Source: Psychrobacillus sp. FSL K6-4046 (GTDB lineage Bacteria > Bacillota > Bacilli > Bacillales_A > Planococcaceae). From it: a stretch of 64,000 nt of DNA. The position numbers and the translations under genes are program-made. Below the pieces are notes generated by a model. The model saw only the letters and a list, made by a program, of their open reading frames with translations, was not told where the DNA came from and did no database searches. This document shows positions 3,018 to 55,849 of the stretch, one piece after another (the first letter of the stretch is position 1; every line of letters starts with the position of its first letter). Location: contig NZ_CP152020.1 in NCBI RefSeq assembly GCF_038624605.1, positions 2,225,312 to 2,289,311 on the forward strand. The letters run 5' to 3'.

Positions 3018-4469
3018 CTATTTGGAACGATCTCGAACAGGTGATCGTGTAATGAAAGGTCTCTTCGCATTAGTTGGCATCGGAAAACGAATAATAATAC
3101 GAGCAAACGCTCTCGGATAAAAAGGTATTAATGGCCACAAATAAGGTACATTTAATGGCTTTAAGCTACATATATACCATACTAAACACACTGTTGCGAT
3201 AAACAGTCCATTAGCCCCAAAAGCAGCTGCGCTAAGCAATAGGAACATCCTAAATATTTTAGTAGCAATACTTAGTTCATAGGACGGAATAGCAAACGTA
3301 AATATAGCTGTTATAGCTGTATATAAAATAACTTCTGCTACGAATAGCCCTACATCAACAGCCATCTGTCCGATGACTAAAGCCGCTATAATTCCCATTG
3401 CTGTAGATAAAGGAGTAGGGGTGTGAATGGCGGCTAGCCTTAAAAACTCTATTCCGATATCGGCAAATATCAATTGAAGTAAAAGTGGTATCTCACTTGT
3501 TTCATTAGGTCCTAAGAAATCTAAGGCTTTCGGTAGATAATCGGTATTTTTAGCCATTAAATACCAAAATGGCAATAAGAATAAACTGAAGAAAACTCCA
3601 AAAAAACGAATAGATCTTACTAAGGTTCCGATTGCTGGAGCTTGTCTATACTCCTCAGCATGTTGTAAGTGATGGAATAGGGTTGTAGGGACAATAATAA
3701 CAGATGGAGAGGTATCTACAACAAGCAAAATATGACCTTCAAGTAAATGAGCTGCTGCTATATCCGGCCTTTCGGTAAACCGAACAAAAGGCACTGGATG
3801 AAAGCCCTGCACGAATAACCATTCCTCTAGTGCTTTATCACTCATTGTAAATCCATCATGCTTGATTTTTTTTAAACGCTTCCGAATGAGTTCTAGATTT
3901 TCTTCGTTCGCCACTCCTTTAATATAGGAAATCGCGATATCCATTTTACTCATCGAGGAAATTTGATGTAGTTCGAAACGGAGGTTGGTATCTCTTATTC
4001 GTCTACGAATAAGTGCGGTGTTTAAAACAATGTTCTCCGTAAAACCATCCCGAGATCCACGTACCACTTTTTCATTGTCTGGCTCCTCGGGTGTTCTACC
4101 GGGGTAACTTCGTACATCTACCGTATAAACTGATCCATTTTCCAAAATGAACGTCACTTGGCCACTTAGTAGTGCCGAAATCCACTTTTCTTTTGAGTCA
4201 TATTGCGTGATCGAGTAGTAAGGAAAATAGTGATTCATGATTTCATTTTGAGAAACATCCTCTTCTGGAGGATTCTTCATAGTCCCCGTCATTAAATCTG
4301 TTAATGTCGGTCCATCAATGAGACCATTAATGTAAACAAGTAATACCGGGAATTTAAACAAGTGGGTATGAAGGAGTCCAAAATCATAGGACTCGTTCTC
4401 CCCAAACTTTTCTTTTAAATACGCTTCTGCCTCGGTCATATCCTTAAATAGTGTCTTCGTAATAATCAC
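3018..4469 (-). CDS. spoVAF: Stage V sporulation protein AF (GerA-family membrane protein)
   Basis: A 483-residue protein of the GerA/SpoVAF family. The soluble N-terminal half contains RSYPGRTPEEPD and GSRDGFTENIVLNTALIRRRIRD, stretches shared with B. subtilis SpoVAF, the latter covering residues 142-164. The C-terminal half (about residues 285-450) holds several hydrophobic membrane helices. In B. subtilis SpoVAF is an inner spore membrane protein associated with germination. Its start overlaps the sigF stop by four bases, so it is translationally coupled to sigF. The spoVAA-AE genes that normally lie between are absent, so this gene probably relies on the sigF operon promoter or one inside it. 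Confidence 0.92.
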   Translation of the reverse strand: MIITKTLFKDMTEAEAYLKEKFGENESYDFGLLHTHLFKFPVLLVYINGLIDGPTLTDLMTGTMKNPPEEDVSQNEIMNHYFPYYSITQYDSKEKWISALLSGQVTFILENGSVYTVDVRSYPGRTPEEPDNEKVVRGSRDGFTENIVLNTALIRRRIRDTNLRFELHQISSMSKMDIAISYIKGVANEENLELIRKRLKKIKHDGFTMSDKALEEWLFVQGFHPVPFVRFTERPDIAAAHLLEGHILLVVDTSPSVIIVPTTLFHHLQHAEEYRQAPAIGTLVRSIRFFGVFFSLFLLPFWYLMAKNTDYLPKALDFLGPNETSEIPLLLQLIFADIGIEFLRLAAIHTPTPLSTAMGIIAALVIGQMAVDVGLFVAEVILYTAITAIFTFAIPSYELSIATKIFRMFLLLSAAAFGANGLFIATVCLVWYICSLKPLNVPYLWPLIPFYPRAFARIIIRFPMPTNAKRPFITRSPVRDRSK

Positions 4470-5251: not shown

Positions 5252-5697
5252 TAGACGGTCCTAACTGATTCTTGAATTGGTACAAATTTCTTTGTGATGG
5301 TTACGGTTGTCCCCCTATCAGGAATGGAGTATATATCCACATCATCACTGAAGCTTTCCATTATAGTAAAGCCCATACCAGAACGTTCCTGCTCAGGCTT
5401 GGTTGTATATAAAGGTTCTCTTGCCTGGGTGACATCTTTTATGCCACGACCATAATCTACAATAGAAACGACTATCTCTCTTCCACTACGTTGCGCATGT
5501 ATTTCGATTTTTCCTACGCCATCCTCTTCATAACCGTGCACAATAGCATTAGTTACTGCTTCCGAGATAACTGTCTTAAACTCTGACAGCTCCTCAATTG
5601 TTGGGTCGATCGCAGATATAAAACTGGACATCACCATTCTTGCTAATGCTTCATTCTCACTTTTGGCAATAAAAGATAATGTAATTTCATTGTCCAT
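5251..5697 (-). CDS. spoIIAB: Anti-sigma F factor and serine kinase SpoIIAB
   Basis: A 148-residue GHKL ATPase/kinase. The N box (EAVTNAIVHGYE) lies around residues 46-57, the G1 box (VDYGRGI) near 80, and the GMGFTIMESF segment near 107. It binds SigF in the predivisional cell and phosphorylates SpoIIAA. The length matches the family (146 in B. subtilis). It overlaps spoIIAA by 11 bases and is one base from sigF. Confidence 0.96.
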   Translation of the reverse strand: MDNEITLSFIAKSENEALARMVMSSFISAIDPTIEELSEFKTVISEAVTNAIVHGYEEDGVGKIEIHAQRSGREIVVSIVDYGRGIKDVTQAREPLYTTKPEQERSGMGFTIMESFSDDVDIYSIPDRGTTVTITKKFVPIQESVRTV

Positions 5698-6043
5698 AAA
5701 CTATTCCCCCTAACTTTGAAATTATTTCAATTTCTGATTCGCTGTAAATGTATGGGCTTAAACCTGCAAACTGAAAAATTTTGCGCATAGTTGGTGATGG
5801 ATTAACGATGATGGTTTGACCATCAATTGGAGCTAACTCTCGCATTCTACCTAGAATGAGTCCAATACCTGAGCTATCCATGAAATTTAAATCTTTTAAA
5901 TTCCAAACAAGAACCTTAATAGAGCCATTCTTAATCATTGGTACTATCTCATTTCTTATTTCTGTCGTGCTATGATGGTCTAGCTCACCTTTCAATCGAA
6001 TAATAACAATTTCGTCTCCTACTTTTTCAACATCGTGTTTCAT
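5687..6043 (-). CDS. spoIIAA: Anti-anti-sigma F factor SpoIIAA
   Basis: A 118-residue STAS-domain protein. The phosphorylatable serine is Ser58 in NFMDSSGIGLILG, the same number as in B. subtilis. Unphosphorylated SpoIIAA releases SigF from SpoIIAB. GAGGAGG sits just upstream of the ATG. It is the first gene of the operon; dacF, which precedes spoIIAA in B. subtilis, is not present here. Confidence 0.96.
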   Translation of the reverse strand: MKHDVEKVGDEIVIIRLKGELDHHSTTEIRNEIVPMIKNGSIKVLVWNLKDLNFMDSSGIGLILGRMRELAPIDGQTIIVNPSPTMRKIFQFAGLSPYIYSESEIEIISKLGGIVYGQ

Positions 6044-6065
6044 AAAATCGCCTCCTCATAAAACG

Positions 6066-6094
6066 CAATTCCACATAGAATTCTATAATCCTTT
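6066..6094 (-). promoter_or_regulatory. Predicted SigH promoter of the spoIIA-sigF operon
   Basis: On the minus strand, AAAGGATTA (6094-6086) matches the SigH -35 consensus RnAGGAwww exactly. GTGGAATTG (6074-6066) matches the -10 consensus RnnGAATww except at the last base. The spacing is 11 bases, and the element lies 23 bases upstream of spoIIAA. Confidence 0.7.
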
Positions 6095-6411
6095 GCAAAT
6101 GACAAAAGTAGAAGAAATCATCGCAATTTAGAAGATTTTCGACAAAAGGTCTATACACATCAAGTATGGGTAAATTAAACATTTTTTAAACAATAAAAAG
6201 ACAGCAATTTAAGATATTTTTAAATCTTAGATTGCTGCTTATATGATTCAATTTTATTTTGCTATTTTTAAAGAAAAATTAGGCCAGAATAAGGGCATGT
6301 TATGCTATTTAATCTATACAGTAGAATTGATTTTCGTTTTCGGCGGGGTGAGCGATGAAAAACAGAAATAATAAAAAGAAAAATGTAAATCATCTGCTTT
6401 TTAAAGAGGAA

Positions 6412-6550
6412 AGTAGAATTGATTTCCGCACCAGCCGGACGCTTTCCGTGGGGTGAGTGATAAGCCATCACCCATCGCTTGCGCGCGTGGTTGTGATGTC
6501 TTATCTAGCTCACTCATCCCACAGGAATCGCCGCCTTCCGCTTCAATCAA
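6412..6550 (+). repeat. Dispersed repeat copy A
   Basis: An imperfect palindromic unit running from AGTAGAATTGATTTCCGC through CCGGACGCTTTCCGTGGGG and ATCGCCGCCTTCCGC to TTCAATCAA. It closely resembles the copies at 15340-15480 (reverse) and 55489-55630. A truncated copy with an internal deletion lies just before it at 6320-6357. No gene is visible in 6044-6775 otherwise; the region holds the SigH promoter, an AT-rich hairpin near 6200-6235 and this repeat. Confidence 0.8.
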
Positions 6551-15016: not shown

Positions 15017-15170
15017 TAATCATTCCCCCTTTGCTATATGAAAGTATAATAACTTTCTCGTCATAAATTTACGTATATCTAAAATTTTAGTTTCAAAATA
15101 TTCAATAAATAAATGAGAGTTCTGCATTAGAAAGTTAAATTTCTTAAACGAAGTCAATATTTGTTTATTT

Positions 15171-15480
15171 CTAAAGCTTTGTTAAAGTTATTGGTTAATT
15201 TTGATTAAAACTTCTTTTTTTAAAGTGATTGTAAACATTACAGAAGTGACATTCAAATGACTATTAAGAACATAAATTTTGTTTATGCAAGTAAATTTAT
15301 AAGCACTTTATCGATGAATTAAAGCCGTTCCCATTTATTGAATGGAGCACCAGACGGCGACATAAGCAGGAATAAGTGAGACAGATAAGACATCACAAAC
15401 ACACACGTAAGCGATGGGTGATGGATTATCGCTCACTCCGCGAAAAAGCGTCCGGCTGGTGTGAAAAATCAATTCTACTT
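15171..15480 (-). repeat. Dispersed repeat copy B, long form
   Basis: Read on the minus strand this begins AGTAGAATTGATTTTTCAC, passes through CCAGCCGGACGC and GATAATCCATCACCCATCGC, and continues about 160 bp beyond the short repeat. The extension shares AAATTTACTTGCATAAACAA (15279-15298), TTAATAGTCATTT and CCAATAACTTTA with copy G at 55489-55791, in the same order. This fills most of the 578-bp gene-free stretch 15017-15594. Confidence 0.8.
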
Positions 15481-15545
15481 TCTGACTTAAAGATTCCTTG
15501 CAACATTAATCAACCATACCCTTTTACATAGCTATTTCAAAAAAA

Positions 15546-41069: not shown

Positions 41070-41463
41070 AAAAAGAGGCTGGGACAAAACCCACCTCAAA
41101 ATTAAAAGCAGTTCAAATTTTACGATGAGTAAAATTTGAACTGCTTTATTTTTATGTCTACTTCGTAGCCGTTGTTCTCCGTTAAGGCGGACGCTTTCCT
41201 GGGGGCACGGATCGAGCCTGTAGTCTCTCCCACGCGCTTGTCCCCTAGGAGTCGCCGCCTTCACTCCGAACAACTAATATTTCTTCTATATTCAGATGAT
41301 CTCTACATAATTTCAGGCAACAAAAAGGACATCTTCTGTTAAAATTTAAGTATCCTACTACCAAATTCTAAACGAAAGAAGTGTCCTTATGTTTAAAAAT
41401 TATAAATGAATCAACTTTCTCTTTTTGCGTAAACTGAAACTAATTATGTCCCAGCCTCTTTTT
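41070..41463 (+). mobile_element. IS1182-type relic with intact terminal inverted repeats
   Basis: AAAAAGAGGCTGGGACA at 41070-41086 is exactly complemented by TGTCCCAGCCTCTTTTT at 41447-41463. Inside near the right end, ATG at 41389 begins MFKNYK then stop; with one base shifted it continues MNQLSLF, like the N-terminus of IS1182-family transposases (MFKNY-MNQ). The rest of the transposase is deleted. A 19-bp-stem hairpin (AAAGCAGTTCAAATTTTAC and complement, 41107-41150) and dispersed repeat copy F occupy the interior. Family assignment is from memory of the N-terminus. Confidence 0.7.
41167..41275 (+). repeat. Dispersed repeat copy F, nested in the IS relic
   Basis: GTTGTTCTCCGTTAAGGCGG, ACGCTTTCCTGGGGGCACGG and AGGAGTCGCCGCC mark this copy, closest to copy C at 27741. 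It ends in CGAACAAC, complementary to its own start GTTGTTC, so the ends pair. Confidence 0.75.
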
Positions 41464-47761: not shown

Positions 47762-48217
47762 TTAAATATTTGCCTTCAGTAGTTTTAAATCTCTTGAAAA
47801 CGTTGCATGTATTCTGTGTCCACCAAATAAATCACCGTCATAGAATTCACAGTAAATAGCATGTTTATTTATCACTACATCAGATAAGGAGATTGATGAA
47901 ACAAATTCTTTTAGAGTTATATTGTATTCACCTGCATCTACTGCTTCCCAATTTAAATTCGGATCATTTTCATCGTATTCAGGCCAAAAGTCATTTTTAT
48001 AATCAAGCAAATTTTCAGCCACAGAAGTTTTTACATGTTGTTCGAAAACTTCTACAGTAGAAAATTGTTTTTCAACACCAATTAACAGTTCCTTAGCACC
48101 TCCTATATTTATACTATTCAAGATGAAATGAATATTCCCTTTGTAGTTTTCAAAATTTTTTGTTGTCTCATTGTAACTGAATAACCCCAATGCATCACTA
48201 TAGATAGAGGAATTCAT
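47762..48217 (-). CDS. DUF2262-like protein
   Basis: A 151-residue soluble protein. The YSDALGLFSYNETTKNFE start and the C-terminal CEFYDGDLFGGHRIHATF are typical of DUF2262 proteins, which are often encoded beside toxins or immunity genes. Here no toxin gene is recognised beside it, and the function is unknown. It is transcribed divergently from the lipoprotein gene at 48471. A site GGTGGCACGG lies before the ATG. Confidence 0.7.
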   Translation of the reverse strand: MNSSIYSDALGLFSYNETTKNFENYKGNIHFILNSINIGGAKELLIGVEKQFSTVEVFEQHVKTSVAENLLDYKNDFWPEYDENDPNLNWEAVDAGEYNITLKEFVSSISLSDVVINKHAIYCEFYDGDLFGGHRIHATFSRDLKLLKANI

Positions 48218-55372: not shown

Positions 55373-55488
55373 GATGCATCTCCTAATTCTATTCTTTGTA
55401 CTTTGTATTTTGTTAGAGAAATTATAATTTTAACTCTTTATTAAAGGCTATGTTAAAGGGTTGGGTTGATTTATGAATTTTAAATCAG

Positions 55489-55791
55489 AGAGTGGATTTG
55501 ATTTCCGCGCCAGCCGGACGCTTTCCGTGGGGTGAGCGATAAGCCATCACCCATCGCTTACGCGCGTGGTTGTGATGTCTTATCTGTCTCACTCATCCCA
55601 CTGGAGTCGCCGCCTGTCGCTCCAATCAATAAATTGAGTATACTTTAATGCGTCAATAAAACTCAATCTATAAATTTACTTGCATAAACAAGCCGGTAAA
55701 CGGACTCCAACCACATCTTATAATCTAGATATGTTATTTAATAGTCATTTTGAATTCAAAATCAACCAATAACTTTAGCAAAGCTTTACTA
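55489..55791 (+). repeat. Dispersed repeat copy G, long form
   Basis: The short repeat (GATTTCCGCGCCAGCCGGAC, GACGCTTTCCGTGGGG, GGAGTCGCCGCC) covers 55489-55630. A further ~160 bp follows with AAATTTACTTGCATAAACAA at 55672-55691, TTAATAGTCATTT and CCAATAACTTTA, all in the same order as in copy B. It explains most of the gene-free stretch 55373-55849. Confidence 0.85.
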
Positions 55792-55849
55792 TAAAAGAGA
55801 AAAGACTAATTTCAAAAAAATGAAATTAGCCCCTTACTACATGTAAATA

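Follow-up and report, generated by a model that had tools for sequence, protein, structure and literature searches.

The 64,000-nt window analysed here (Psychrobacillus sp. FSL K6-4046, contig NZ_CP152020.1, positions 2,225,312 to 2,289,311) carries two long copies, B and G, of a dispersed repeat that also occurs as short palindromes, and these copies raise the question of what the long form is and how it is related to the short one. The long repeat is very probably a miniature inverted-repeat transposable element (MITE) that arose from an IS1595-family transposon by internal deletion, has no gene and carries an older palindrome. We compared the window's own genome (G000; one contig of 3,885,841 bp), a second genome of the same species, Psychrobacillus sp. 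BL-248-WT-3 (G011), P. faecigallinarum (G002) and further genomes of the genus and family, the family being that of the genome collection (NCBI puts Psychrobacillus in Bacillaceae). Because only 36-40 candidates were scored per genome in the DNA searches, the MITE copy numbers are lower bounds and are to be read as "at least".

Extent, ends and insertion sites of the long repeat

In pairwise alignment, B and G stand in opposite orientation 40 kb apart, and the three sequence blocks that the initial annotation had reported as shared are all colinear. BLASTN within the window gave 77.8% identity over 257 columns (E ~1e-51) and, at the left end, a second match of 90% over 40 columns (E ~1e-8). 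The long form had been described as a unit of ~300 bp; the repeat is real, but this extent is too short, and the interval given for B stops before the right end of the element. Alignment of 41 copies with their flanks provided a consensus and a profile of a sharper-edged element of ~389 bp, which runs from AGCTTTGTTAAAG to CTTTAACATAGCC and includes a palindrome of ~130-132 bp. Copy B (15175..15533, plus strand, 359 bp compared with 389 in the consensus; end at 15532/15533) matched profile positions 1-388 of 389 (E 2.4e-93), and copy G (55446..55785, minus strand, 340 bp) matched positions 1-389 (E 2.5e-90). When B was used as the query against its own genome, 42 matches were obtained at 40 scored places (the best 40 of 126 candidates); 34 of these places, B included, spanned query positions 1-6 to 304-310 at E ≤ 5e-50, the remaining six being partial, and the matches of G overlapped largely with this set. 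The longer unit, and not only a core of ~140 bp, is therefore repeated throughout the genome. The 389-bp consensus had no match in plasmid or phage collections, from which records of the window's own genome were possibly excluded.

The consensus and both window copies end in imperfect terminal inverted repeats of ~27 bp (AGCTTTGTTAAAG.../GGCTATGTTAAAG...). In copy B the left repeat (15175..15201, plus strand) has two mismatches and the right repeat (15507..15533, minus strand) three mismatches to the pattern GGCTNTGTTAAAGN5GGTTGATTT. There is no transposase gene in the 389-bp consensus, in which a transposase start is followed by a stop after eight codons. Outside the terminal repeats the flanks are duplicated over 8 bp. 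We examined 53 full-length copies (32 in FSL K6-4046, 20 in BL-248-WT-3 and one in P. faecigallinarum; six sites are counted in both strains) and found exact 8-bp duplications at 28 of them, or at 24 of 47 when each site is counted once. The mean identity of the 8-bp flanks was 0.868 (0.870 with one copy per site) as compared with 0.461 in shuffled pairings, of which the maximum in 200 shuffles was 0.521. Control lengths of 4-7 and 9-12 bp gave at most three exact duplications and mean identities of 0.42-0.56, the shuffled maximum being slightly exceeded at lengths 7, 9 and 10. By flank comparison, copy B lies between ATTTCTAA (15167..15174) and ATTTCAAA (15534..15541), identical at seven of eight positions, and copy G, read on the minus strand, lies between TATAGTAA on the 5' side (55786..55793) and TTTAATAA on the 3' side (55438..55445).

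The duplicated 8-mers are 95% and 94% A+T on the two sides, against 63% in the wider flanks, and 51 of the 53 insertion points fall outside open reading frames of at least 80 aa. A terminator-like hairpin was detected within 70 bp of 21 of the 53 insertions in the three genomes and of 4 of 53 control windows, by an ad hoc hairpin test with a single random draw of controls; this suggests that the MITE prefers terminator flanks as insertion sites.

To compare the two strains, 23 joined-flank sequences were searched in both genomes and the presence of the MITE itself was then checked. MITE presence differs at 12 of the 22 determinable sites. Among 14 sites of FSL K6-4046, BL-248-WT-3 has the MITE at nine, copy B included, and lacks it at four (L105, the remaining site, is not among the 22): the flanks are contiguous at the sites of copy G (G011:C38:13020-13180), L016 and L096, and at the L014 site the 8-mer AATAGATA is present once and is followed by a different repeat. 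In the reverse direction, eight of nine BL-248-WT-3 sites lack the MITE in FSL K6-4046, six with contiguous flanks and two (L123 and L154) with other sequence; the ninth, L151, is occupied in both strains, and its MITE in FSL K6-4046 contains a further insertion. Joined flanks are thus contiguous at nine of the 12 absences. Seven of these nine empty sites were aligned, and the 8-mer is kept once in five of them (L016, L147, L139, L143 and L133) and once, one base out of register, in L096. We concluded from the terminal inverted repeats, the 8-bp duplications and the empty sites that the long repeat has been mobile, as the initial annotation had supposed in speaking of a longer mobile element.

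Several further arrangements were noted at these loci. At one site (L007, G000:2788649-2789034; L308, G011:C45:24027-24398), counted among the nine occupied ones, the MITE lies between the same flanks in opposite orientations in the two strains, which could reflect an inversion between its terminal repeats or, alternatively, two separate insertions at the same target. The sequence that occupies the L014 site in BL-248-WT-3 (L304, G011:C12:34330-34647) is a different repeat of ~318 bp with the ends GAGGCTGGGAC.../...GTCCCAGCCTC, and L304-like stretches of ~210-300 bp at 85-89% identity occur at a few other loci (L133, L282, L281 and L145). In two MITEs of FSL K6-4046 (L102, starting at G000:458969, and L103, starting at G000:941119) an insertion splits the core, in both at GGGATGA/CATAGCTATCAAGTTAAGAA; the L102 insertion encodes a transposase-like open reading frame of 461 aa, and the matching BL-248-WT-3 site (L151) holds an uninterrupted MITE. 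In one deletion copy of BL-248-WT-3 (L127, 5065-4811), most of the left arm is followed directly by the last bases of the core and the right arm. Two more multi-copy short sequences were found near MITE sites of FSL K6-4046 (joined-flank query stretches 1822-1905 and 3510-3636), one a GTGAAATC...GATTTCGC hairpin and the other including the end-like GGATATGTTAAAGGTAAGTTGGTTTT.

Relation to IS1595-family transposons

The end pattern given above, allowing two mismatches, was found in 67 of 261 family genomes and in 15 of 19 genera, compared with one match for the reversed control pattern; its 109 occurrences in FSL K6-4046 include other IS1595-type elements besides the MITE. Among 17 end-pattern stretches examined, several consist of two facing ends with 8-bp duplications. 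A complete transposon of 2021 bp is present in a sister species (L227, G006:C36:13005-15025), with MITE-like ends, TTTTTAAA on both sides and a 340-aa protein that scored 215.9 bits to the IS1595 transposase model NF033547 and matched PF12762 (E 4.8e-17). Two further elements carry a transposase frame: L229 in genome G031 (1771 bp; NF033547 202.5 bits, a PF12762 match and an acetyltransferase as well) and L230 in genome G118 (1689 bp), in which the first 150 residues of the frame are nearly identical to those of L229. All three have end patterns with at most two mismatches and duplications identical at eight of eight positions. Aligned with the G006 element, MITE positions 2-100 show 77% identity to its left end (106 columns, E 2.8e-16) in a match that extends past the start codon of the transposase, and the last 27 bp, on the right, show 93% identity.

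Apart from these elements, cargo-only cassettes with IS1595-type ends were observed: L228 in P. faecigallinarum with a DUF3885 gene and L231 in genome G003 with a uridine-kinase-like gene (duplications 7/8 in both), and L232 in genome G001 with genes of no assigned family. Among the cassettes L228, L229, L231 and L232, a transposase frame is present in L229 only.

Elements of the ISL3 family also make 8-bp A/T duplications, and ISL3 was the first suspected parent; a decayed ISL3 transposase fragment directly adjoins the right end of one MITE (L121, G000:715874-716089). The recovered, plausible ends of two ISL3 elements of the genus (GGTTCT... in G007; GATTGT.../GGTTCT... in G001) are, however, unlike those of the MITE, and the MITE end pattern, at up to four mismatches, is absent from eight of nine ISL3 loci, the ninth being L121, which has only the right end of the MITE itself. 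IS1595 elements share with the MITE both its ends and roughly 100 bp on the left, and membership of the ISL3 family is very improbable; we rejected ISL3 as the parent.

Under the IS1595 derivation, a deletion would have left both terminal inverted repeats and ~100 bp of the left end, as far as the first transposase codons, with the rest of the transposase gene lost and the interior occupied by a palindrome of ~132 bp that is widespread in the family. An IS1595 transposase supplied in trans would bind both ends and insert the MITE into intergenic 8-mers rich in A/T, in many cases next to a terminator-like hairpin, with duplication of the 8 bp. Spread would presumably be replicative, and each insertion would multiply the palindrome along with the MITE.

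Several observations weigh against this account. The duplication is inexact in 25 of the 53 copies, four of which agree at only two or three of eight positions; that of copy G agrees at six of eight, and its empty counterpart is diverged at the junction. At L014, L123 and L154, three of the 12 absences, other sequence stands in place of the MITE, and these do not count as clean empty sites with joined flanks. No intact IS1595 transposase was found in FSL K6-4046 or BL-248-WT-3 (PF12762: no match in either); the protein search gave one decayed IS1595 fragment in the former (42% over 67 aa, with one stop) and none in the latter. MITE positions ~105-196 have no match in the autonomous element (E ≤ 1e-3) or in the flanks of stand-alone cores at 14 loci (E ≤ 1). 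Since no intact IS1595 partner was found in either strain, we infer the helper from other species, and it would have been lost from the two sequenced strains; present mobility is accordingly doubtful, while the IS1595 origin is unaffected.

Distribution, structure and age of the palindromic core

The palindrome described in the initial annotation as common could be placed clearly at four positions of the window with a covariance model, R1, built from 22 cores of 15 genus genomes. Two of them lie in the MITE copies, in B at 15338..15472 (plus strand; 94 bits, E 3.1e-27) and in G at 55498..55629 (minus strand; 140.9 bits, E 2.9e-42; fold -62 kcal/mol, z -6.84). The other two, both on the minus strand, stand alone: a short core at 6419..6550 (136.3 bits, E 8.9e-41), beside which neither a terminal-repeat pattern (≤ 5 mismatches) nor a match to a MITE profile (positions 105-196) was found, and a divergent core at 41172..41273 (60.7 bits, E 1.4e-16). 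A possible remnant of a core 3' end lies beside the short copy at 6312..6357 (minus strand; nhmmer with the full-element profile, E 0.00028), where R1 gave no match at E ≤ 1.

The core was found in all 19 genomes of the genus and the full-length form in three, namely both strains and, once, P. faecigallinarum (81% over 1-389, E 6.3e-106). The other 16 genomes gave matches no better than 2.7e-40, which, among the matches listed, cover only ~190-335 of the 389 positions, that is, the core; genome G004 gave a weak DNA match but a clear covariance-model match (E 3.6e-30). R1, with rough E-values, matched 235 of 250 family genomes in all 19 genera, and a search at the level of the order returned this family only. 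An exact core pattern matched only Psychrobacillus records, in 37 stretches (30 in strain BL-248-WT-3, six in P. faecigallinarum Sa2BUA9 and one in Psychrobacillus sp. OK032), in a search from which the records of the window's own genome were possibly excluded. In P. faecigallinarum, short cores also form clusters on one strand (L130, ~290-1150 and ~5510-6270), several of them ~220-230 bp apart.

It had been proposed that the short copies of ~140 bp are truncated derivatives of an ancestral long form. Truncated MITE copies do exist in FSL K6-4046, at six of the 40 scored places (for example, query 99-309). As a general account, however, the proposal is the wrong way round and hardly credible: the core is far more widespread than the full-length element, and 14 short-core loci (L061, L062, L070 and L088 included) have no match to a profile of the MITE segment that adjoins the core on its left. 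By that token the ~130-bp core appears to be older than the MITE, and the long form would have taken up the short repeat, presumably before its expansion.

The R1 structure has 43 pairs, 15 of which show changes on both sides, compared with 5.1 in shuffles, and 96.6% of the cells pair; the derivation of the structure from the same alignment and the relatedness of the sequences both favour covariation in this test. Sliding the pair partners by 1-3 columns leaves at most three pairs changed on both sides. No Rfam match was obtained at gathering in the whole window or at E ≤ 5 in 55440-55800. Of the structured RNA suggested in the initial annotation, the structure thus holds, the core being a covarying hairpin, and action as RNA finds no support.

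We then asked how the core changes after insertion. Of 18 orthologous occupied pairs tried, 14 were alignable; the MITE is absent from one strain at three of the dropped pairs and inverted at one (L014, L007, L123 and L154). Substitutions numbered 46/1850 in the core (2.5%), 82/3453 in the arms (2.4%) and 100/4194 in the flanks (2.4%), with p = 0.85 for core versus arms. A single pair, L011/L129, supplies 54 of the 100 flank substitutions, and without it the counts are 46/3894 for flanks, 63/3200 for arms and 34/1718 for the core, which if anything changes faster than the flanks. That the core is no slower than arms and flanks argues against a selected role at each insertion. A conflicting observation comes from copies within FSL K6-4046, in which the core (columns 197-328) is 0.93-0.97 conserved per 20-bp block and the arms 0.80-0.93. 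Alternatively, a role as structured RNA or in the regulation of transcription (as attenuator, terminator or small RNA) could keep the element at each site, its mobility being incidental; the core fold (z -6.84), the both-side changes and the proximity of terminator-like hairpins would fit such a role. The equal rates at the 14 orthologous sites, the difference in MITE presence at 12 of 22 sites between the two strains and the negative Rfam result make it improbable. Covariation between lineages may instead reflect a need for the fold in those copies that spread.

How the core entered the MITE can be considered in two ways: DNA containing it was caught when the MITE formed, or the core is itself mobile and jumped into a coreless IS1595-type MITE. 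Stand-alone cores occur with unrelated flanks, and a version of the core (59 bits) also lies inside the different repeat with GAGGCTGGGAC ends (L304), as might be expected of a mobile core. A joined-arms query in FSL K6-4046 (best 40 of 110 candidates) nevertheless revealed no coreless MITE: the sole match to both arms (47780-48060) retains part of the core, and both core arms are still present in a short variant at 3469455. Moreover, a scan of 41 stand-alone cores revealed no sign of duplicated flanks at lengths of 3-10 bp. A jump of the core is possible on this evidence, and we regard it as rather doubtful. Immediately to the right of the core, a few bases (TTCTACTTT-like) are common to the MITE and the stand-alone copies of FSL K6-4046, so that slightly more than the hairpin may have been taken up. 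A wider proposal would add hitch-hiking in two layers. The hairpin itself would be mobile and spread in a fold-dependent manner; in one Psychrobacillus lineage it would have gained a second route through the IS1595-type MITE, which spread while its helper was lost, and at least one other repeat, that with GAGGCTGGGAC ends, would carry it too. Fold-dependent spread would lead to covariation between lineages with no constraint at individual sites; taken as a whole, we consider this combination unlikely and put it forward tentatively.

Comparison with known elements

The long repeat is explained here with base-precise evidence, and the order that had been assumed for the long and short forms is reversed. 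The analysis adds a new family of IS1595-derived MITEs, a kind of element known before, for which an autonomous relative could be identified, together with IS1595-type cassettes of varied cargo in several genera of one family, and it brings out a very common covarying palindrome with no Rfam match. Covariation that is not accompanied by constraint at each site makes it possible to ask whether selection on such hairpins acts through a host function or through their own spread. Among the papers listed in the literature searches, none has a title on this element or on a Psychrobacillus MITE, which is weak evidence of absence.

The IS1595 family was reportedly defined by Siguier et al. in 2009. 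Its traits include an 8-bp duplication and a zinc finger (PMC8101967), and tISCpe8 and MTnSag1 encode enzymes of this family (PMC5704250). The MITE agrees with these elements in its 8-bp duplications, its ends and the homologous ~100 bp on the left, and the autonomous relative has, as in the IS1595 family, a DDE transposase with an N-terminal zinc-binding domain. Unlike the passenger-gene elements of the family, the MITE has only the first transposase codons and a hairpin repeat in place of a gene.

BrickBuilt of Porphyromonas gingivalis is a MITE that contains a minisatellite, its cargo being a 23-bp tandem repeat (PMC4596501). The present element resembles bacterial MITEs and BrickBuilt in being short, gene-less, intergenic and multi-copy, with inverted repeats at its ends and a repeat inside; it differs from BrickBuilt in that the cargo is a covarying palindrome of ~130 bp that is also free-standing across the family. 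The bcr repeats of the Bacillus cereus group are described as dispersed elements of 100-400 bp with mobile features, bcr1 having a mean of 39 copies per strain (PMC6542083). By this description bcr1 and the MITE are both dispersed and have mobile features, and the MITE has 8-bp duplications of the IS1595 type. Bhal-1 and Bhal-2 of Bacillus halodurans are multi-copy stem-loop repeats of 74 and 76 bp (PMC2267715). They resemble the core as multi-copy stem-loop repeats in a related genus, and differ from it in size.

The ends of MIC231 are of the IS231/IS4 type. The title of a reference in PMC6542083 names MIC231 as a mobile insertion cassette of B. cereus. Mobile insertion cassettes have transposon ends around a cargo other than transposase, an arrangement seen, with IS1595-type ends, in L228, L231 and L232; the MITE shares it and, unlike these cassettes, carries no gene.
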